From: Candidatus Hydrogenedentota bacterium
Lineage (GTDB): Bacteria; Hydrogenedentota; Hydrogenedentia; Hydrogenedentales; JAEUWI01
Length of the DNA stretch: 36,103 nucleotides
Reading direction: 5' to 3'
NCBI GenBank assembly: GCA_016791475.1
Contig: JAEUWI010000068.1
Coordinates: forward strand, 1-36,103
The position numbers were made by a program, and so were the translations under genes. The notes below the pieces were generated by a model that worked only from the letters and a program-made list of their open reading frames with translations, was not told the origin of the DNA and made no database searches. Of this stretch, positions 10,101-35,002 are shown piece after piece. The number at the start of each line of letters is the position of its first letter. Position 1 is the stretch's first letter.

Positions 10101-10189
10101 CATACGACGGGCCGCGGACGCGCGATGGGTCGTATGGGTCGTATGGGTCGTATGGGAACGCAGTTTTCATACTGACTCATACGACCCAT
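10101..10189. repeat. 9-nt tandem repeat (ATGGGTCGT) with inverted copies
   Basis: Three perfect ATGGGTCGT units at 10125-10151 with a partial fourth, flanked on both sides by inverted copies (CATACGAC at 10101-10108 and CATACGACCCAT at 10178-10189). It directly precedes the heptad array, as at 1703-1864. Confidence 0.9.
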
Positions 10190-10192
10190 TTT

Positions 10193-10471
10193 CATCCTCC
10201 AGCCTCCAGCCTCCAGCCTCCAGCCTCCATCCTCCATCCTCCAGCCTTCAGCCTCCAGCCTCCAGCCTCCAGCCTCCAGCCTCCAGCCTCCAGCCTCCAG
10301 CCTCCAGCCTCCAGCCTCCAGCCTCCAGCCTCCAGCCTTCAGCCTTCAGCCTTCAGCCTTCAGCCCCCAGCCCCCAGCCCCAGCCTTCAGCCTTCAGCCT
10401 TCAGCCTTCAGCCTTCAGCCCCCAGCCCCCAGCCCCCAGCCTTCAGCCTTCAGCCTTCAGCCCCCAGCCTT
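10193..10471. repeat. Long pyrimidine-rich heptad array (CAGCCTC/CAGCCTT/CAGCCCC)
   Basis: About 40 consecutive 7-nt units: CATCCTC, CAGCCTC, CAGCCTT and CAGCCCC in blocks, with one 6-nt slip near 10376-10381. The strand is almost free of purines apart from the fixed A (and G) of each unit. Blocks of identical variants suggest repeated slippage or local duplication. The + strand frame through it encodes Ser-Leu-Gln-Pro-Pro-Ala-Ser repeats, upstream of and in frame with the AGE-family gene, but this is probably untranslated. The whole gap 10091-10566 holds only this and the 9-nt array. Confidence 0.95.
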
Positions 10472-10566: not shown

Positions 10567-11802
10567 ATGCCCACCCCCAATACCGCGTTGAGCCCCGCCC
10601 GTCTTGCCGAATTGTCCGCCACCTACCGCGACGGCCTGTTGAATGACATCGTGCCTTTCTGGCTGCGCCACGGACTTGATCGGGAGCATGGCGGTATCAT
10701 GACCGCTCTCAACCGCGATGGCGCCGTGATCGATACGGACAAGGGCCTGTGGCAGCAGGGCCGTTTTGTCTGGCTTCTGGCGACGCTCTGTCATTCCGTG
10801 GAGCCTCGCGAGGAGTGGATCGCGGCCGCGGAGTCGACGGTGAACTTCATTCACAAGTCCGCCCACACCGAAGACGACCTCATGTATTTCCAGGTGACCC
10901 GGGAAGGCAAGCCCCTGCGCCGCCGGCGGTACGTCTACACCGAATCCTTTGCGGCCATCGCCCTGGCCGCCTGGTCGCGCGTTTCGGGAGACCCGGAAGC
11001 CCGCGCGGAGGCCATCGATCACTTCCATCGCTTCGTCGATTACAATCGTACCCCCGGCTGGATCGCCCCCAAGGTCGATCTGGCCACCCGGCCCAGCCAG
11101 GGTCTCGGGCCCAACCTCATCCTCATCAACACCTGCCGCGTTCTCCGTGACGCCATCGGCTTCGGCGAGGCAGACGCCTTTATCGACGAGGCCATTGAGA
11201 TCATCGAGCGCTGCTTCGTCAATGAAGAGTACCAGGCCGTCCTGGAAACCGTGGGGCCCGAGGGCGAGATCATCGATCACTTCGACGGACGCCTCCTCAA
11301 CCCCGGCCACGCCATCGAGCTGGCCTGGTTTATCCTCCATGAAGCCTGGCAGCGCGGCAACGACGCACGGCTCCTGGCGCTCGGCTGCAAGATCCTCGAC
11401 TGGACCTGGGCCCGCGGCTGGGATCAGGAATACGGCGGCATCCTTTACTTCCGCGACCTCAAGGGCCTTCCTGTGCAGGAATACTGGCAGGACATGAAGT
11501 TCTGGTGGCCGCAGAACGAGACCATCATCGCCACCCTTCTGGCCTATGCCCTCACCGGCGACGCGAAATATGCCGAATGGCATACCCTGATTCACGATTG
11601 GACCCACAGCCTCTTCCCCGATCCCGAGTATGGCGAGTGGTTCGGCTACCTCCACCGCGACGGTCGGATTTCCGTGCCCCTCAAGGGAAACATCTGGAAG
11701 GGCCCATTCCATATCCCCCGGATGCAGTGGTACTGCTGGCAGCTCTGTGATCGCATGATCGCCCGCGAAGGCGACGCCCCAATCACGCCCATCAGCTTCT
11801 GA
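10567..11802 (+). CDS. AGE-family (N-acylglucosamine 2-epimerase-like) protein
   Basis: Cytoplasmic-type protein of 411 residues, typical of the N-acylglucosamine 2-epimerase/cellobiose 2-epimerase family, an (alpha/alpha)6 barrel that interconverts the C2 configuration of sugars. Family features are HGGIMTALNRDG near the start, GLWQQGRFVWLLA (about 60-72), YTESFAAIALA, LLNPGHAIELAW with the catalytic-type His248, WWPQNETIIA, and GPFHIPRMQWYCWQL with His382. The ATG at 10567 follows a purine-rich AGAAGAG. Extending the frame upstream would add over 170 residues of repeat-encoded low-complexity sequence, which no family member has. The exact substrate (ManNAc, mannose or cellobiose type) cannot be told. 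It is convergent with the histidine kinase gene, leaving a 12-bp gap. Confidence 0.9.
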   Translation: MPTPNTALSPARLAELSATYRDGLLNDIVPFWLRHGLDREHGGIMTALNRDGAVIDTDKGLWQQGRFVWLLATLCHSVEPREEWIAAAESTVNFIHKSAHTEDDLMYFQVTREGKPLRRRRYVYTESFAAIALAAWSRVSGDPEARAEAIDHFHRFVDYNRTPGWIAPKVDLATRPSQGLGPNLILINTCRVLRDAIGFGEADAFIDEAIEIIERCFVNEEYQAVLETVGPEGEIIDHFDGRLLNPGHAIELAWFILHEAWQRGNDARLLALGCKILDWTWARGWDQEYGGILYFRDLKGLPVQEYWQDMKFWWPQNETIIATLLAYALTGDAKYAEWHTLIHDWTHSLFPDPEYGEWFGYLHRDGRISVPLKGNIWKGPFHIPRMQWYCWQLCDRMIAREGDAPITPISF

Positions 11803-11814
11803 GGGGAGGCCCCA

Positions 11815-13089
11815 TCACCCCGCCAGGAGCGGGAGTTCGATGATGACCGTCGTACCTTTACCGGCCTCGCTTTCAAAAGAGAGCTCCCCGCCGTGGCCCC
11901 GAACCGTCTCTTGAACCACGGGCACGCCCAGTCCCACGCCAAACGCGCGCGTACTGAAAAGGGGCGTGCCCACCTGTTTCAGCACCTCCCGGGACATTCC
12001 GGGACCCGTATCCGTGATGCGGATCTCGCAGGTCGTGCCCCGGGCATAGCTCGTCACCATCAGGCGGTGCTCCCGGCCCGCGTCGTCCTCAAAAGACTGT
12101 ACGCTGTTGTTGATCAGGTTCATCAGCGCGCGCCGCATCTTCTCCCGATCCAGGGACACCATCACACCCGGCTGGAGCTGCACCTCGCAATATACCGCGG
12201 GCGGAATCTCCGCCGTGGAAAGCACACCCGTCAGCCACGTGTCCAGCGTGGTCGCCCGACGCTCGATTTCATGGGCGCGACTCAAGTCGAGCAACTCCTC
12301 GATGATCCGGTCACAGCGGATGATGTTGCGCTCGCCCCGCTCGATGGCCCGGCGAAGGCGCTCCCGATCCACACCGTCAATCCCGTTCTTCAACGTGAAA
12401 AGTGAGCTCCGCACCGTTCCGAGGGGATTGCGGATCTCATGGCTCACCGCCGCCATAATTTCCCCCAGCATCGCCAGGCGCTCCTTCGCCAGCAGCGCCC
12501 GTTGCGATTCCTGCAACTCCGCCGTGCGGCGCGCCACGATCTCCTCCAGATTGTCCCGGTGCGCGGCGAGTTCCGCCTGCGCCTCAATCCGCTCCGCCAC
12601 CTCCTCCGCCAGCGCCTCGCCCTCCTCCGCCAGCGCGTCCCGCGCCGCCCCCAGCTCCACCACCGCCAGAATGAGCGCGCAGAACATGGCAATGATGCCA
12701 AGCGTCACAAATACCGCATCCAGAAAGCCGTTCCACGCCGAAGCGTTCCCCAGTACCGGAATGTTTACGAGTGCCGGAATGTCCTCCGTCGTGCTCAGAA
12801 ACTGCCCGCACACCACCCCGACCGCCCCCGCCAGCGTCAGCGCCTTCACCAGCAGGCCGCACCGATAAGAAGCCATCAGCCGGGTAAACATCAGAAGGAC
12901 AATCAGGACCGTCGCCAGTAGGAGTGCGTCTCGGTAGAGGGGGGTAGCGATCTGCGTACACACAAGCACCAGTGTAAAGACAAGAACGATGCCGCCGAGG
13001 TATGATTGCGCCGTCTTCCGGGCCGAAGGGCGCGAAAATGGACCGACGCCTCCCACCCGTGCAAGGGGGTCGTGCTCCCTGGATTTCAT
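11815..13089 (-). CDS. Membrane sensor histidine kinase
   Basis: Protein of 424 residues. Four hydrophobic segments (about 31-49, 54-72, 78-96, 122-145) anchor it in the inner membrane without a large periplasmic domain. A coiled-coil linker (about 148-200) follows, then a HisKA domain with the phospho-acceptor His217 in SHEIRNPLG. The HATPase domain has the N box NLINNSVQS (about 324-332), G1 DTGPGM (360-365) and G2 GVGLGVP (384-390). It should autophosphorylate and pass phosphate to a response regulator, but none is encoded nearby, so it is an orphan kinase here. Start ATG 13089 has GGGGAG upstream; the open frame before it shows no conserved features. The signal sensed is unknown; the membrane-embedded sensor suggests a membrane-linked or lipophilic cue. 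Confidence 0.93.
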   Translation of the reverse strand: MKSREHDPLARVGGVGPFSRPSARKTAQSYLGGIVLVFTLVLVCTQIATPLYRDALLLATVLIVLLMFTRLMASYRCGLLVKALTLAGAVGVVCGQFLSTTEDIPALVNIPVLGNASAWNGFLDAVFVTLGIIAMFCALILAVVELGAARDALAEEGEALAEEVAERIEAQAELAAHRDNLEEIVARRTAELQESQRALLAKERLAMLGEIMAAVSHEIRNPLGTVRSSLFTLKNGIDGVDRERLRRAIERGERNIIRCDRIIEELLDLSRAHEIERRATTLDTWLTGVLSTAEIPPAVYCEVQLQPGVMVSLDREKMRRALMNLINNSVQSFEDDAGREHRLMVTSYARGTTCEIRITDTGPGMSREVLKQVGTPLFSTRAFGVGLGVPVVQETVRGHGGELSFESEAGKGTTVIIELPLLAG

Positions 13090-21641: not shown

Positions 21642-21721
21642 GAGCAAATCCCCGTAAGTTCTGAGTTCGTCATTGCGGGACGCGGTCTATTCCAGCACGT
21701 AAAGCGCGCGCCTGATGCCAT

Positions 21722-21727
21722 TTGACA
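21722..21727 (+). promoter_or_regulatory. Possible -35 element before the class-III PLP enzyme gene
   Basis: A perfect TTGACA lies 51 bp upstream of ATG 21778, but no good -10 hexamer occurs at the standard 16-19 bp spacing. If it is a promoter, the alternative start at 21715 could not be used. Confidence 0.2.
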
Positions 21728-21777
21728 TTGTACAGGTACGATGCCCTAGCCTGATAGCACCTTCTATATCTGGCCCG

Positions 21778-23148
21778 ATGGATACCCTGACCGTGCAAAT
21801 AGGCGATGACCACAGCGACCTCCGTTCCGAGGGCGACCTAAACCTTTCCGACGCACGGCTTCGCTGGCAGGCCGAACACCTGGACCGGGATACCCGCACC
21901 CTGCTGGACGAAGACGCCGCGGTGTTCCTGCACCAGTCCCTCTCCACGCCCTGCCTGAACGCGCTGGAAAGCTGCGAAGGCCCTCATATCGTGGATACCC
22001 AGGGGCGGCGCATCTTCGATTTCCACGGCAATTCTCTGCATCAGGTGGGCCATGCAAACCCGAAGGTCATCGAAGCCATCCAGCGGCAACTGGCCGAGCT
22101 GGCCTTCTGCCCACGGCGCTACACCAACCGACCGGCCATCGATCTCGCGAAAAAGCTCGTGGAAAAAGCACCCGGCGATCTCAGCCGCGTCCTTTTCGCG
22201 CCAGGGGGCACCTCCGCCATCGGCATGGCCCTCAAGCTCGCCCGCGCCGCCACCGGCCGCTACAAGACCATTTCCATGTGGGATTCCTTCCATGGCGCCT
22301 CCCTCGACGCCATCTCCATAGGCGGCGAGGCCATATTCCGGAAGGGAATCGGTCCCTTGATGCCGGGAACGGAGCACGTGCCCCCGCCCGACCCCGCGAG
22401 TTGCCCTTTCAAATGCGGGACGGTCTGCACCCTCCAGTGCGCGGACTATATCGAGTATGTGCTCGAAAAAGAGGGCGATGTCGCCGCCGTCATCTCGGAG
22501 ACGGTTCGCAGCACGCCCTATATTCCGCCGCCGGACTACTGGAAGCGCGTCCGTGCCGCCTGCGATCGCCACGGCGCTCTGCTGATTCTCGACGAAATCC
22601 CCACCTGCCTCGGGCGGACCGGCACCTTCTACACCCACGAGCACTACGGTATCGTCCCCGATATGGTCGTCATCGGCAAGGGACTCGGCGGCGGCGTCTT
22701 CCCCCTGGCCGCCCTCCTCGCCCGGGAGCACCTGAACAGCGCCATGCCCGAGCGCGCCCTCGGCCACTACACCCACGAAAAGAATCCCGTCGCCTGCGCC
22801 GCCGCATTGGCCACGATAGCCTTCATCGAAGAGAACGACCTCCTCGAGCACGTGACGGAACTGGGGACTTACACCCTGGAGCGTCTGCGCGGGTTGCAGG
22901 AAGAATTTCCGTGCATCGGCGACGTGCGTGGACTCGGCCTGCTGCTGGGTGTCGCCATCGTCGAGCCCGGGACCGCTAAGCCCGCCCCCGCGCATGCGGA
23001 GAAAATCCTCTATGCCGCCCTCAGTCGCGGATTGAGCTTCAAAGTCAGCATGGGCAACGTGCTCACCCTCGCGCCCGCGCTCACCATCACGCGGGAGCAA
23101 ATGGACGAGGCGCTGGGGATATTGGCGCAAAGCCTCTCTTCTACTTGA
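21778..23148 (+). CDS. Class-III PLP enzyme, PbfA-like phosphonate ammonia-lyase candidate
   Basis: Fold-type I PLP enzyme of 456 residues. The cofactor lysine is K301 in IGKGLGGG, the aspartate contacting PLP nitrogen is D272 in LDEIPTC, and the phosphate-binding loop is APGGTSAIGM (141-150). The conserved blocks GDLNLS, HQSLSTPCLNAL, FCPRRYTNRPAI, SMWDSFHGASLDAIS and HVPPPDP match, from memory, a subgroup that includes (R)-1-hydroxy-2-aminoethylphosphonate ammonia-lyase (PbfA) rather than ordinary transaminases. PbfA would release ammonia and phosphonoacetaldehyde. No phosphonate gene is nearby, so the substrate remains open. Four cysteines at 209, 213, 217 and 221 are spaced every four residues, a possible metal or structural cluster. 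ATG 21778 places GDLNLS near residue 19; ATG 21715 is the alternative. Confidence 0.8.
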   Translation: MDTLTVQIGDDHSDLRSEGDLNLSDARLRWQAEHLDRDTRTLLDEDAAVFLHQSLSTPCLNALESCEGPHIVDTQGRRIFDFHGNSLHQVGHANPKVIEAIQRQLAELAFCPRRYTNRPAIDLAKKLVEKAPGDLSRVLFAPGGTSAIGMALKLARAATGRYKTISMWDSFHGASLDAISIGGEAIFRKGIGPLMPGTEHVPPPDPASCPFKCGTVCTLQCADYIEYVLEKEGDVAAVISETVRSTPYIPPPDYWKRVRAACDRHGALLILDEIPTCLGRTGTFYTHEHYGIVPDMVVIGKGLGGGVFPLAALLAREHLNSAMPERALGHYTHEKNPVACAAALATIAFIEENDLLEHVTELGTYTLERLRGLQEEFPCIGDVRGLGLLLGVAIVEPGTAKPAPAHAEKILYAALSRGLSFKVSMGNVLTLAPALTITREQMDEALGILAQSLSST

Positions 23149-24410: not shown

Positions 24411-26355
<1,945 letters not shown>

Positions 26356-27489: not shown

Positions 27490-27741
27490 GGATATTGTAT
27501 TACCACGAAACACACGAAGAGCACGAATAATAATGAGAGAGGGAATGGTTGTTTCCGTCGTACGCCAGACAAATCGCTTTGGACTGGCATTTTCAATTAA
27601 CTTTGCGCCTTCGCGCCTTTGCGTGCAGTACATTTGTGACTCAAGCGTAGGGGGTGCGGAAGCCAGATGCAGCCGGTTTGCCTTTGGGAGAAATACTTTT
27701 CTCGCCATTTCAGCTATAATAATCCCAAAAGGAGAATAGCG
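27490..27741. other. Intergenic region with dispersed repeat arms
   Basis: It holds two single arms of repeats found elsewhere in the window: an ACCACGAAACACACGAAGAG-type element at 27501-27530, related in inverse to 32350-32379, and TTTGCGCCTTCGCGCCTTTG at 27602-27621, extending to 27628 and related to the hairpin at 32211-32282. A candidate -10 TATAAT lies at 27715-27720. Confidence 0.7.
27715..27720 (+). promoter_or_regulatory. Candidate -10 of the parDE operon
   Basis: A perfect TATAAT lies 22 bp before the parD start, immediately followed by the AAAAGGAG ribosome site, so the leader would be very short. No good -35 hexamer is seen at 16-19 bp. Such modules are usually autoregulated at this position by the antitoxin. 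Confidence 0.4.
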
Positions 27742-28339: not shown

Positions 28340-28561
28340 TCAAGCTCGCTCCATTTCACCCAGTATCCGCTGCTTTGCCAGTTCCCAATCTTCAAGCTCT
28401 GTCTCGCCAGTCTTCAACGCCGTATCGCGTTCGTGTAACACCTCTCCGTGCCACGCGGGCGATGGGACGCTCGATTCATTGCGGTAAAGATCTTCCCAAA
28501 TAAGCTCCATAGTCTGGCGCTTGTCTTCCACAGACCTTTCGTCCAAGGGAATGGGAATCAT
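28340..28561 (-). CDS. Solitary addiction-module antitoxin (Unstab_antitox-like)
   Basis: Protein of 73 residues. The core MELIWEDLYRNESSVPSPAW followed by HGEVLHERD and the ending EDWELAKQRILGEMER match the small addiction-module component family (TIGR02574 type), normally encoded just upstream of a RelE/ParE-like toxin. ATG 28561 has an AAAGGATG site. Downstream on its strand there is no toxin; instead the convergent parE ends 16 bp away. It may be a relic of a second module, or it may act with a toxin encoded elsewhere or with the neighbouring ParE. Confidence 0.75.
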   Translation of the reverse strand: MIPIPLDERSVEDKRQTMELIWEDLYRNESSVPSPAWHGEVLHERDTALKTGETELEDWELAKQRILGEMERA

Positions 28562-28745
28562 GGTTCATCCTTTCGTTGGCGGATTGGCGTCGGTCATGCC
28601 GACATCAAAACTATACACCAATCCGACCCACTGCTCGGCAATTTCCGCCATCAAGCATCGCCCCACGCGCAACACGTGGCACCCGCCGCCGAATCCGTGT
28701 AGAATCGCCCCACAGTCCACCCATACACCCCAACCCCGGAACCCT

Positions 28746-30692
<1,947 letters not shown>

Positions 30693-30700
30693 ACCAAAAA

Positions 30701-30730
30701 CATCCGTCCTATCCGTCGAATCGGTCCTAT
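30701..30730. repeat. Single arm of the ATCCGTCCTAT dispersed repeat
   Basis: CATCCGTCCTATCCGTC followed by GAATCGGTCCTAT is nearly identical to the right arm of the inverted repeat at 6653-6715. It occupies most of the short gap between asnB and the next gene. Confidence 0.75.
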
Positions 30731-30745
30731 ACCCTGGAGCGTCTC

Positions 30746-32197
30746 GTGCCCTCCGAAGTCACCGCCACATCGCGCCTCACCGCAAGCCTGCTCCTCCTGG
30801 GCGTGGCCGTGGTTGCCTGCTGCCTGGCCATCGCCGGGCTCTCCAGTGGCTTCGCCTATGGCACCGACATGGCCGACCGACCCATATTGCCCTTCGTCGC
30901 GTTCCTCATGCTCGCCGCGTTGCCCTACTTCGCTTCGGTCTATCTCGCGCCGCGCGCAAGCCATTCGCGAAAACTCGCCTGGGGCATTTTTATCATCGGC
31001 GTCGCCATGCGCCTCGTCATGGCCATTGCCCAGCCCATTCTCGAAGATGATTTCTACCGCTATCTCTGGGATGGCGCCGTTACCGCGCATGGACACCATC
31101 CCTACACGATCCGTCCCGCCGATGCCCGCGCCGGCGGGGAAGGGGTATCGCCCGAGCTCCTCGCCCTCGCGCAGGAGAGCGGGGTCGTACTGCAACGCGT
31201 CAATCATCCGGAGCTCGGCACCATTTATCCCCCCGTGACCCAGGCCGTATTCGGCCTCGCCCACGTCCTCGCCCCCTGGAGCCGCGCGGGCCTCCTCACC
31301 CTCTACTACGCAGCCGATTGCGTCGCCTTCGCCCTCCTGCTGGCCCTCCTGCGCCGTCTCGGCAGGAATCCCGCCCTCGTGCTGGTCTATTGGTGGAATC
31401 CCCTCTGCGTGAAGGAAATCTATAATTCACTGCACATGGACATCCTCCTCGCGCCTTGTCTGCTGCTTTTCCTGTTGATGTTTTTACGCAGACGACCCGT
31501 CATCGCGTCATGCGCTCTGGCCGTGGCCACCGCTGTCAAACTGTGGCCGTTCCTCCTCCTCGCGCCCATGCTCGTGACGCTTCGCAAGTCGCCCCGTGCC
31601 CTCGTTATCAGTTTGTGCGCCTGCCTGCTGCTTTCCGCCTTGCTCCTCGCGCCCATGGCGGGCACCCGCATGCTGGGCAATGCCTCCGGCCTTGCGGCCT
31701 ACAGCGCACGCTGGGAAATGAACGATGCCCTTTTCATGGTGTTCCCCTGGTCCATCAGGCACATTGCCACCATCGCGGGCCACACCCTCAGCGCCGGCGA
31801 GGCCCACCGCGCGGGAAAACTGATCGCCGGACTCGTTTTGCTCGCCGCCACTGTCCTGATTTGCCGCCGCGCCGTGAACCAGGACTCGAGCCACGCTGAG
31901 CCCGAACACCGGATGGCGGCCGCCGTACTCTGGATCACCGCCGCCCTTTTTCTACTCAGCCCCACCCAGTTCCCCTGGTATTTCATCTGGTTTGCCCCAC
32001 TCCTCTCCCTGATTCCCAGTCGCGGCCTGATGCTCCTGACCCTCACCCTGCCGCTCTACTACCTCAAATTCTATCTCGACGCCCGCGGTCAGGTGCAGCT
32101 CTTCCACCACGGCGTCGTCTGGCTGGAATACGTTCCCGTGTGGCTTCTGCTTCTTTGGGACCGGGGGAAAGAAACTCCCAGGCATGTCGCCAATTGA
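30746..32197 (+). CDS. Polytopic GT87/mannosyltransferase-like membrane glycosyltransferase
   Basis: Integral membrane protein of 483 residues with about 11 hydrophobic helices. The loop after the second or third helix carries EDDFYRYLWDGAVTAHGHHPY, the acidic motif expected of polyprenol-phosphate-sugar-dependent (GT-C) mannosyltransferases such as GT87. TIYPPVTQAVF and YWWNPLCVKEIYNSLHMD are further marks of the group. It probably transfers a sugar from a lipid carrier on the outer face of the inner membrane. There is no ATG near the start; GTG 30746 has GGAG 7 nt upstream and places the first helix at about residue 11. It is followed by the multi-domain glycosyltransferase, whose first domain could make the lipid-linked sugar donor it uses. 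Confidence 0.85.
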   Translation: MPSEVTATSRLTASLLLLGVAVVACCLAIAGLSSGFAYGTDMADRPILPFVAFLMLAALPYFASVYLAPRASHSRKLAWGIFIIGVAMRLVMAIAQPILEDDFYRYLWDGAVTAHGHHPYTIRPADARAGGEGVSPELLALAQESGVVLQRVNHPELGTIYPPVTQAVFGLAHVLAPWSRAGLLTLYYAADCVAFALLLALLRRLGRNPALVLVYWWNPLCVKEIYNSLHMDILLAPCLLLFLLMFLRRRPVIASCALAVATAVKLWPFLLLAPMLVTLRKSPRALVISLCACLLLSALLLAPMAGTRMLGNASGLAAYSARWEMNDALFMVFPWSIRHIATIAGHTLSAGEAHRAGKLIAGLVLLAATVLICRRAVNQDSSHAEPEHRMAAAVLWITAALFLLSPTQFPWYFIWFAPLLSLIPSRGLMLLTLTLPLYYLKFYLDARGQVQLFHHGVVWLEYVPVWLLLLWDRGKETPRHVAN

Positions 32198-32210: not shown

Positions 32211-32282
32211 TCCTTTGCGCCTCAGCGCCTTTGCGTGCCGATTTGGGAAGATCCGCACGCAAAGGCGCTGAGGCACAAAGGA
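32211..32282. repeat. Long dispersed hairpin repeat
   Basis: Arms of 28 bp (32211-32238 and 32255-32282) pair with one mismatch around a 16-nt loop. The left arm begins TCCTTTGCGCCTCAGCGCC. A single arm of the same sequence is at 27602-27628. No T tract follows, so it is not an obvious terminator. A second dispersed element (TTCGTGCTCCTCGCGTGCTT) begins at 32351. The whole gap 32198-32460 is made of such pieces. Confidence 0.9.
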
Positions 32283-32460: not shown

Positions 32461-34452
32461 ATGCGAAACGAACACACCATTGCCGTCATCATCCCGGTCC
32501 TCAACGAAGAAGCCGCAATCGGCAAGGTGATCGGCGACATCCCCGCCTGGGTGGACGACATCATCGTCGTCGACAACGGCTCCACAGACGACACGGCCCG
32601 CGTCGCGGCGGAGCACGGCGCACGGGTGATTGCGGAGCCGCAGCGGGGCTATGGCGCGGCCTGTCTGCGCGGCATCTCGGCCCTGAACGCAACGGATATC
32701 GTCGTCTTTCTCGACGGCGACTACAGCGATCACCCGGAAGAAATGCCCCTGTTGGTCGATCCCGTGATCCAGGGTGAAGTCGATTTCATGGTCGGCTCGC
32801 GCGCTCGTGGTGTCCGCGAGCCCGGTTCTCTCACGCCCCAGGCGGCCTTCGGTAACTGGCTCGCCACAAAGCTCATCCGCATTTTCTGGGGCATCCGATA
32901 TTCCGATCTGGGGCCCTTTCGCGCCATCCGCTACCGCACCCTGCTCCAACTGGGTATGGCCGATCGGGACTACGGCTGGACCGTGGAAATGCAGATTAAG
33001 GCGGCCCTCCACGCGGTGCCCGCCGATGAAGTTCCCGTCTCCTATCGCAAACGCGAAGGCGTCTCGAAAGTTTCCGGCACCGTGCGCGGGGTCGTTGGCG
33101 CGGGCTATAAAATCCTCAGCACCATCTTCCTCAGCGCGCTTTTCTCCAAACACACCCTCAAGACCGGACTGCTGATCTATTTCACCCGATTCCCCGAGTC
33201 CGGCACCACGAAAACCCGCCTGATTCCCGCGCTGGGGCCCGAGGGCGCCGCTGAACTCCAGCGCCAACTGACGGAGCACACCCTCCGTCAGTCCATTCCC
33301 CCGCTGGATGAAGTGGAAACTCAGATTCGCTACACCGGCGCGGCTCGATCGGCGCTGCGCGAATGGCTCGGGCCCGACCATCTCTACGCCCCCCAGGGCG
33401 AGGGAAATCTCGGCGACCGGATGGCCCGTGCCGTGGAGGAGGGCTTCAATCAGGCCTATGGCAAAGTGGTCCTCTGCGGCACCGACTGTCCGGCCTTGAA
33501 CAGCCGTCACACCCTCGAAGCCTTTCGCGCACTGGACACGGTAGACCTCGTCATCGGACCCGCCGTTGATGGCGGCTACTACCTCATCGGACTCGCCCTC
33601 AACGGCGGACCCGATGAGGTCCAGCGACTCTTCGAAGGCGTTGAATGGAGTACGTCGACCGTGCGCGAACAGACCTTGGCGAATGCGGAACGGATTGGCC
33701 TTTCCGTGGAATTGCTGGAGGAATTGTCCGATGTGGATGAGCCGGAAGACCTCGTTCATTGGAAAAACTCCCAACGCGACACGGGTCTCTCCGTCATCAT
33801 CCCCACCTGGAACGAGGAGGAGCACATCGGCAAGCTGCTCGATGTCGTGGCGATCAGTCCCGAAGTCGAAGTTATCGTCGCCGATGGCGGCAGCAGCGAC
33901 CGAACGGTTGAGATAGCCGCCGGGCGCGCCCGCGTTGTACACGCGGAGCGGGGGAGAGCCTCGCAGATGAACGCCGGCGCCGCGGTCGCCACCGGGCGCT
34001 ATCTGCTCTTTCTACACGCAGACAGCCTTCCGCCCGACGACTTCTCCTCGTGTGTGCGTCGGACGCTGGCCTTCGAAAACGTGGCCCTCGGCGCTTTCGA
34101 ACTGCGGATTGACGGGGCCGGAGGCGCGATGCGGTTCATAGAAAGCGCTGCCAACCTGCGGAGCCGGTGGCTCTCCACGCCCTACGGCGATCAGGGCCTT
34201 TTTCTGCGCCGAGATACCTGGGAAGCCGTCGGCGGCTACCCCGTCCTTCCCATGCTGGAAGACTATGCACTCGTTCGGGCCGCACGAAAGGTGGGGGCGG
34301 TTGTAACCCTGAGCGCCATCACCTCTACCTCCCCGCGCCGATGGGAGCGCGAGGGTCTCCTGCGTTTGACGGCGATGAATGTAGTCACGTTTTTTGCCTA
34401 CCCCATGGGGGTATCGCCCGAAAGGATTGCGCGATGGTATGGGCGGGAGTAG
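32461..34452 (+). CDS. Triple-domain glycosyltransferase fusion (GT2 + TIGR04282-type + TIGR04283-type)
   Basis: Protein of 663 residues made of three nucleotide-sugar-transferase-like domains. Domain 1 (about 1-232) is a GT2 dolichyl-phosphate-sugar synthase-like unit: IIPVLNEE, VVDNGSTDDT, FLDGDYSDHPEE and SYRKREGVSKVSGT. Domain 2 (about 236-435) resembles the DUF2064/TIGR04282 group: YFTRFPESGTTKTRLIPALG, GNLGDRMARA, LCGTDCPAL, VDGGYYLIGL. Domain 3 (about 443-663) is a second GT2 unit of the TIGR04283 type: SVIIPTWNEE, VADGGSSDRT, RGRASQMNAGA, FLHADSLPP, PYGDQGLFLRRDTWEAVGGYP. Domains 2 and 3 are commonly adjacent genes; joining them to a polyprenyl-phosphate synthase-like domain is uncommon. 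Some relatives of domains 2 and 3 are named for arsenosugar synthesis, but no arsenic gene is here. ATG 32461 starts precisely at the first domain. Confidence 0.92.
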   Translation: MRNEHTIAVIIPVLNEEAAIGKVIGDIPAWVDDIIVVDNGSTDDTARVAAEHGARVIAEPQRGYGAACLRGISALNATDIVVFLDGDYSDHPEEMPLLVDPVIQGEVDFMVGSRARGVREPGSLTPQAAFGNWLATKLIRIFWGIRYSDLGPFRAIRYRTLLQLGMADRDYGWTVEMQIKAALHAVPADEVPVSYRKREGVSKVSGTVRGVVGAGYKILSTIFLSALFSKHTLKTGLLIYFTRFPESGTTKTRLIPALGPEGAAELQRQLTEHTLRQSIPPLDEVETQIRYTGAARSALREWLGPDHLYAPQGEGNLGDRMARAVEEGFNQAYGKVVLCGTDCPALNSRHTLEAFRALDTVDLVIGPAVDGGYYLIGLALNGGPDEVQRLFEGVEWSTSTVREQTLANAERIGLSVELLEELSDVDEPEDLVHWKNSQRDTGLSVIIPTWNEEEHIGKLLDVVAISPEVEVIVADGGSSDRTVEIAAGRARVVHAERGRASQMNAGAAVATGRYLLFLHADSLPPDDFSSCVRRTLAFENVALGAFELRIDGAGGAMRFIESAANLRSRWLSTPYGDQGLFLRRDTWEAVGGYPVLPMLEDYALVRAARKVGAVVTLSAITSTSPRRWEREGLLRLTAMNVVTFFAYPMGVSPERIARWYGRE

Positions 34453-34477: not shown

Positions 34478-34756
34478 TCACCCGTCGCTGTGGCCCAGCG
34501 ATTGCCCAGGCGCTATCTGATCGCGAAGCCGTTGTTTGAGGACCTTCAATTCCGGAAATCCGCCCTCCGCTATCCGCGACCACAGCAGTACGTCGTCGCA
34601 GCGAACCTCAAACACACCACCGCTACCCGGGATCAGGGCCACTTCGCCCAACTGTCCCTGAAATGTGGTCAAGAGCTCCTGAGCATACCATGTTGCGCGG
34701 AGCATCCAACGGCACTGGTTGCAATACTGGATAGAAATACGGGGTGTGCGTTCCAT
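34478..34756 (-). CDS. SelT/SelW/SelH-family (Rdx) thioredoxin-fold protein
   Basis: Protein of 92 residues. A strand leads into the redox motif CNQC (YCNQCRWMLRATWYAQELL), then come GEVALIPGSGGVFEVRCDD, GGFPELKVLKQRLRD and the family ending LGHSDG. Both positions of the CxxC are ordinary cysteine codons, so no selenocysteine is needed. These small cytoplasmic proteins are thought to act as thiol redox partners; their exact role is unsettled. ATG 34756 has GGAAAGG about 10 nt upstream; longer starts only add an unconserved tail. It is convergent with the triple glycosyltransferase gene, 25 bp away. Confidence 0.88.
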   Translation of the reverse strand: MERTPRISIQYCNQCRWMLRATWYAQELLTTFQGQLGEVALIPGSGGVFEVRCDDVLLWSRIAEGGFPELKVLKQRLRDQIAPGQSLGHSDG

Positions 34757-35002
34757 AATGAGGGCCTTTCCGTGCTGAGCGGCCATTATGGCGAAGGCTC
34801 TAGAAAAAGTAAACGCAAGATTGACTTCCCTCTCGTCCAAATGCAATACTACTGCTCCTTTGCGCGAAACGCGTTGGTTTGTCGGCATTCGTGACCGGAA
34901 AACTCCGAAAAATTGAGCGCGCCACCTGAGCATTTATTGTTTTGATGGCTTTTCTCACGTTGGACGCTGAATTGGGTGCAGGCTTCGGCCCTCCCGAAAA
35001 AT

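Follow-up and report, generated by a model that had tools for sequence, protein, structure and literature searches.

A DPM1-like/DUF2064/GT2 fusion with kin in arsenosugar-type operons: a candidate lipid-carrier-loading enzyme in a Hydrogenedentota family without detected ArsS

The fusion gene and its surroundings

The window, by which we mean the whole stretch of 36,103 nucleotides analyzed from a Candidatus Hydrogenedentota bacterium, carries toward its end a single frame that encodes three domains in one chain. This frame, hereafter the triple, runs on the plus strand from an ATG at 32461 to a stop at 34452 and encodes 663 amino acids with no internal stops. The features on which our argument draws are as follows.

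24426..25424, plus strand: GDP-mannose 4,6-dehydratase (gmd), 459.9 bits (cut-off 415)
28521..30692, plus strand, likely start 28746: asparagine-synthase-like amidotransferase, TIGR01536 470.3 bits (cut-off 267.1), matched from aa 77
30641..32197, plus strand: GT-C (GT87-like) glycosyltransferase, GT87 32.4 bits, above the Pfam gathering score of 25
32211..32282, no strand: long inverted repeat between the GT-C and triple genes, 32-nt arms and 8-nt loop
32461..33153, plus strand: D1, DPM1/AglJ-like GT2 domain (aa 1-231), PF00535, AglJ TIGR04182 below cut-off, DPMS fold
33172..33753, plus strand: D2, TIGR04282/DUF2064 domain (aa 238-431), nucleotidyltransferase fold
33787..34440, plus strand: D3, TIGR04283 GT2 domain (aa 443-660), GT-A fold

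The initial annotation had described one polypeptide with three domains, and this description stands: Pfam places DUF2064 once and Glycos_transf_2 in two stretches, TIGR04282 and TIGR04283 both score over their cut-offs, the N-terminal domain is DPM1-like, and the structure model of the whole chain has a mean pLDDT of 88.8. Its caveat that a frameshift or separate genes might underlie the frame fell away, because full-length homologues from independent assemblies, 53-68% identical to the window protein, occur in five of the six other host-family genomes. An artefact of assembly joining two genes is thereby ruled out. Counting the window's own genome, the full triple is present in 6/7 host-family genomes; the remaining one, G001, has the GT-C gene and no triple.

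Several other elements of the window deserve mention in their own right. A small frame just past the triple (34478-34933, minus strand) has homologues near the triple in two related genomes, G003 and G002, at 59-64% identity, and the start of a 16S rRNA gene lies at the contig end (35821-36103, plus strand). An 18-mer of the inverted repeat recurs with two mismatches 4.6 kb upstream, at 27608-27625, and is perhaps a dispersed repeat. The frame at 21715-23148 (plus strand) matches the (R)-1-hydroxy-2-aminoethylphosphonate ammonia-lyase PbfA at 683.8 bits, over cut-off, pointing to phosphonate use. Short tandem repeats occupy positions 1-128, 1703-1760, 10125-10156, and 10196-10470 (GTGGGTC x18, ATGGGTCGT x6 and x3.6, CCTCCAG x39).

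Domain families, folds, and the GT-C partner

The best NCBIfam match of D1 is the archaeal glycosyltransferase AglJ TIGR04182, at 157.2 bits over aa 7-228 against a cut-off of 325. D1 in fact reaches the cut-off of no named lipid-carrier family in NCBIfam, which counts against a role at a lipid carrier. By structure, its closest tested fold is the Pyrococcus dolichyl-phosphate mannose synthase (DPMS) 5mlz, with Z 25.5 and 2.2 A over 219 residues, and the profile of aa 75-228 retrieves only dolichol-phosphate mannose synthase from the PDB (E 0.0049), with the R..GxSK segment aligned; aa 120-228 alone retrieve two designed proteins only (E about 0.45). D85/D87 and R198-x-G-x-S-K, which we take to be the acidic motif and the R..GxSK segment of DPM-type enzymes, are invariant in all 17 aligned triples. 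This alignment covers 17 of the 19 triples collected. L164, which contains a stretch of unread bases, and L165 come from genomes of 72% and 76% completeness, with an ambiguous ArsS state, and were excluded on that account. On fold and conserved motifs, D1 has the predicted features of a DPM-type enzyme, in agreement with the initial proposal of a polyprenyl-phosphate sugar synthase-like N-terminal domain. It has no membrane anchor of its own, and it differs from DPMS and from the mycobacterial pair Ppm1 and PimE (GT87), which D1 and its GT-C neighbor otherwise recall in fold, in being fused to D2 and D3 and scoring under the AglJ and other cut-offs.

The fold comparison is a tie, since glucosyl-3-phosphoglycerate synthase (GPGS) reaches Z 24.6 with the same aligner (VIA-align). 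GPGS also heads the Foldseek list for D1 in the search with the whole model, where DPMS is absent among the first 50 rows listed, and it is the best PDB sequence match for D1 when the whole protein is the query. D1 might therefore be a soluble-product enzyme of the GPGS kind, with the triple making a compatible solute or a glycerate glycoside and the GT-C gene an unrelated neighbor; the likeness of D2 to 3-phosphoglycerate guanylyltransferase would fit such a product. We consider this quite unlikely. The GPGS model NF010496 scores 94.9 bits against a cut-off of 262 and covers only part of the domain, whereas AglJ spans the whole of it, the region beyond aa 75 matches DPMS and nothing else in the PDB, and D1 and GT-C genes adjoin across phyla.

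D2 scores 205.9 bits against TIGR04282 over aa 238-431, above the curated cut-off of 134, and shares the fold of the solved DUF2064 protein 3cgx (Z 26.4); unlike those proteins, it sits fused between two GT2 domains, in a genome without ArsS over cut-off. Its fold also resembles the CofC and 3-phosphoglycerate guanylyltransferases (7p97, Z 20.0), a likeness of fold only, as CofC TIGR03552 scores 25.8 bits against a cut-off of 105. K251-T-R, D342-x-P, and D370-G-G are invariant in 17/17 aligned triples. D3 scores 281.8 bits against TIGR04283 for the whole protein (the sum of two stretches) and 241.5 bits for the C-terminal stretch alone, both above the curated cut-off of 182, and its model has a GT-A fold (6p61, Z 22.0; the WrtF fucosyltransferase, Z 21.8). 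It differs from other TIGR04283 proteins, named "arsenosugar biosynthesis glycosyltransferase," in forming the C-terminal part of a fusion. As modeled, D1 and D3 look like glycosyltransferases and D2 looks like a nucleotidyltransferase-fold domain, a glycosyltransferase by annotation only. The earlier description of three glycosyltransferase domains is therefore borne out only in part.

The GT-C gene lies directly upstream on the same strand. Its model (AF2, pLDDT 87.2) matches ALG3 (Z 23.3), GPI mannosyltransferase I bound to Dol-P-Man (22.2), ALG6 (18.3), ArnT (17.8), and PimE (17.4), and by sequence the profile of its family recovers GPI mannosyltransferase 1 (E 2.5e-7) and PimE (E 0.002). 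The true start of the gene is uncertain, with the first 36 residues modeled at low confidence. PimE is described in PMC12041525 as consuming polyprenyl-phospho-mannose (PPM) supplied by Ppm1. Because the fold matches enzymes that use lipid-phosphate sugars (ALG3, GPI mannosyltransferase I, PimE), the GT-C neighbor is probably such a user and the partner of the triple, in line with the initial suggestion that it could use the lipid-linked donor.

Gene neighborhoods bear on this partnership from both sides. Ten of the 19 triples (the window, L048, L077, L078, L080, L094, L155, L158, L159, and L160) are immediately preceded by the GT-C gene in the same orientation, and D1 genes of the single-domain form have it as a neighbor in Bacteroidota, Hyphomicrobiaceae, and Acidobacteriota as well. 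A same-strand GT-C homologue occurs within 3 kb of D1 in 46/79 loci and at one other place in those loci, where the 79 come from the best 80 of at least 541 relatives in a GTDB contig scan, minus L075, a duplicate of L046; five of the 46 went into building the GT-C model, so that the independent count is 41/74. A chance neighborhood is ruled out by this contrast. Against the partnership, the GT-C gene does not adjoin the triple in four of the six host-family triples, lying elsewhere in the genome, and in the window a 263-bp gap with a strong hairpin separates the two. In G003, G004, and G005, the surroundings of the GT-C gene instead include homologues of other window genes, namely gmd, GT9, or the amidotransferase gene. 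The gmd gene (92% identical in L179) neighbors the GT-C gene in the same-genus genome G003, and the amidotransferase gene (70% identical in L181) adjoins it in G005.

Origin of the fusion and kinship with ArsS operons

The architecture search that had been proposed for GT2-DUF2064-GT2 proteins collected 19 full-length triples across several phyla, including MAGs of Planctomycetota, Kiritimatiellota, Acidobacteriota, and Thermodesulfobacteriota. The contig scan (best 80 of at least 541 relatives) contributed Planctomycetota, Kiritimatiellota, Blastocatellia, and Syntrophaceae. Among the loci collected, D1-D2 proteins occur in two and D2-D3 proteins in three; L157, cut by a contig end, was counted under no architecture. 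Within the phylum, TIGR04282 is over cut-off in 19/68 genomes. A single branch (SH-aLRT 94) separates the 21 fused rows (19 triples and two D1-D2 proteins) from the rest of a 92-row D1 tree. Since this tree requires only one change between fused and single, one fusion followed by spread over several phyla appears to be the simplest history; in the tree of the triples themselves, 6/16 inner branches are starred. The claim that no studied protein has this triple architecture met nothing contrary in the literature searched, a scope with most subscription journals outside it.

In relatives, the gene order is ArsS (radical SAM-DUF3641), then DUF547 and/or VTT, a pyridine nucleotide-disulphide oxidoreductase, GT-C, and the triple, with the run incomplete and its members varying at some loci. 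By gene order, the triple is akin to the gene that closes an arsenosugar-type operon. Outside the host family, 10/13 triples have ArsS in the genome and 7/13 have it within the fetched locus; those without are L097 (G041) and, from incomplete genomes, L164 and L165. Of the 68 phylum genomes, ten exceed the ArsS cut-off, and in seven of these ten a TIGR04282 gene is encoded no more than 6 kb away, on the same contig and strand.

The host family departs from this pattern. The best match to ArsS (TIGR04167, cut-off 300) in the window's own genome, which is 96% complete, is 36.3 bits, and none of the six relatives (0/7 with the own genome) has ArsS over cut-off. The arsenosugar-type ArsM (NF038099) is over cut-off in none of the 68 phylum genomes, a weak test, since this includes the ArsS-bearing ones. 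With neither ArsS nor arsenosugar-type ArsM over cut-off, the own genome differs from known ArsS/ArsM pathways. It does carry a general arsenite methyltransferase ArsM (NF008823, 340.5 bits), which leaves some probability to an arsenic substrate, and DUF547 proteins at other places. All seven rows of ArsS-less triples group in one clade (100/99), implying one change on the tree of triples, where L164 and L165 were given no ArsS state on account of their genome completeness. Loss of ArsS in this clade is the natural reading of the tree, and transfer of the triple without ArsS may be an alternative. The operon kinship and the absence of ArsS in the host family are additions to the initial annotation, whose overall interpretation is partly supported.

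Some related loci show arrangements of separate interest. A methyltransferase is fused to ArsS in a 732-aa frame in L156 (G045; 10672-12867, minus strand), and VTT and DUF547 share one frame within the ArsS operon at L159:6537-8192, L160:4416-6110, and L099:4354-6384 (by Pfam for L159 and by purpose-built models for all three). Many Bacteroidota loci (L088-L153) carry, whole or in part, a recurrent run of oxidoreductase, Fe-S protein, D1, cellulose-synthase-like GT2, GT-C, and TIGR04282, which also occurs in genomes without ArsS over cut-off, for example that of L104. In the genome of L076, an ArsS match (G068:C246:982-1878) reads across one TGA, perhaps selenocysteine.

A working arsenosugar enzyme, as the NCBI family names imply, would account for part of this picture. 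D2 would activate arsenoribose phosphate, supplied jointly by ArsM, a phosphorylase, and an adenosylating enzyme of some kind, D3 would transfer it, and D1 with GT-C would put it on a lipid. TIGR04282 and TIGR04283 are both over cut-off, the triples outside the host family accompany ArsS, the own genome keeps a general ArsM, and Flavobacteriaceae D16 has TIGR04282 (D2), purine nucleoside phosphorylase, arsenosugar-type ArsM, DUF547, and TIGR04283 (D3) in one run, with D1, a cellulose-synthase-like GT2, and GT-C a few genes further. With ArsS below cut-off in the own genome and all six relatives, and arsenosugar-type ArsM likewise in the 68 phylum genomes (the ArsS-bearing ones included), we regard such an enzyme in this organism as very doubtful.

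The rates of the domains raise the possibility of a relic, in which only D1 would be useful without ArsS while D2 and D3 are carried along and drift. In the ArsS-less clade, mean identity is 74% for D1, the best-conserved domain, and 54% for D2 and D3. D2 and D3 are also somewhat faster relative to D1 there, 0.53 vs 0.40, a mild difference expressed as the ratio of branch length inside to outside on a fixed tree; branch lengths were used because pairwise identity ratios may be saturated. The motif columns of all three domains are invariant across the 17 aligned triples, with one clear exception in the wider D2 motif: in L049, the GPA motif is partly lost. Given the faster D2 and D3 and this partial loss, the two domains may be decaying instead of being repurposed. 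Pure drift is nonetheless disfavored, because the seven clade members have kept their full length and their motif residues (bar D2 of L049) at 53-68% identity to the window protein, and D1 is the slowest domain in ArsS-bearing triples too. We judge the relic rather improbable.

Proposed function and its implications

Our preferred reading, to which we assign a probability of about 0.6, is that the triple is a three-domain lipid-carrier-loading enzyme that arose by one fusion, has its kin in ArsS operons, and serves ordinary envelope glycosylation in a lineage without ArsS. D1 would charge polyprenyl phosphate with a sugar taken from a nucleotide-sugar donor, and GT-C would use this lipid-linked sugar on the membrane's outer face to glycosylate an envelope lipid or glycan. 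D2 would combine an NTP with a sugar phosphate, and the sugar so activated would be transferred by D3, placing activation and transfer in one chain. Because ArsS is absent in the host family, the substrate there is probably an ordinary sugar and not an arsenical. The leading candidate is mannose or a sugar derived from GDP-mannose, as gmd lies in the same cluster and near GT-C in G003. The single frame, the domain families, the tree compatible with one fusion, the operon kinship, ArsS below cut-off, and the intact motifs are seen in the sequences themselves; the reactions, sugar, acceptor, step order, and any channelling are all inferred.

A broader scheme, which we hold to be unlikely, would join the host family to its ArsS-bearing relatives. 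The run of ArsM/ArsS, VTT, oxidoreductase, GT-C, and triple would be a lipid-carrier assembly line for arsenosugar glycolipids, reused in the host family for a normal sugar after the loss of ArsS. D2 would activate arsenoribose phosphate, D1 would load it on polyprenyl phosphate, VTT would help to recycle the carrier, and GT-C would attach arsenoribose outside the membrane. If true, this scheme would supply the late steps of arsenosugar and arsenolipid synthesis.

The fusion is a new variation on known enzyme families. To our knowledge, no assignment has been made for the part of arsenosugar synthesis that comes after ArsS. The chemistry of ArsS itself is credited to Cheng 2021 in PMC12159101. 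In the literature searched, we found no tested reaction behind the name "arsenosugar biosynthesis glycosyltransferase" of TIGR04282 and TIGR04283, and genes so annotated are counted as arsenic detoxification in at least one paper, PMC13077682. The automatic label is untrustworthy here because the host lineage lacks ArsS and yet keeps the fusion; the arsenosugar label alone is no proof of arsenic metabolism. With a loader of the DPM type joined in one chain to a GT2 domain and a domain of nucleotidyltransferase fold, and with a GT-C of the lipid-phosphate-sugar-using kind adjoining, the fusion suggests a concrete, testable order of steps. Its main value would lie in that order for arsenosugar synthesis past ArsS and in the warning it gives about the family label in ArsS-less lineages.
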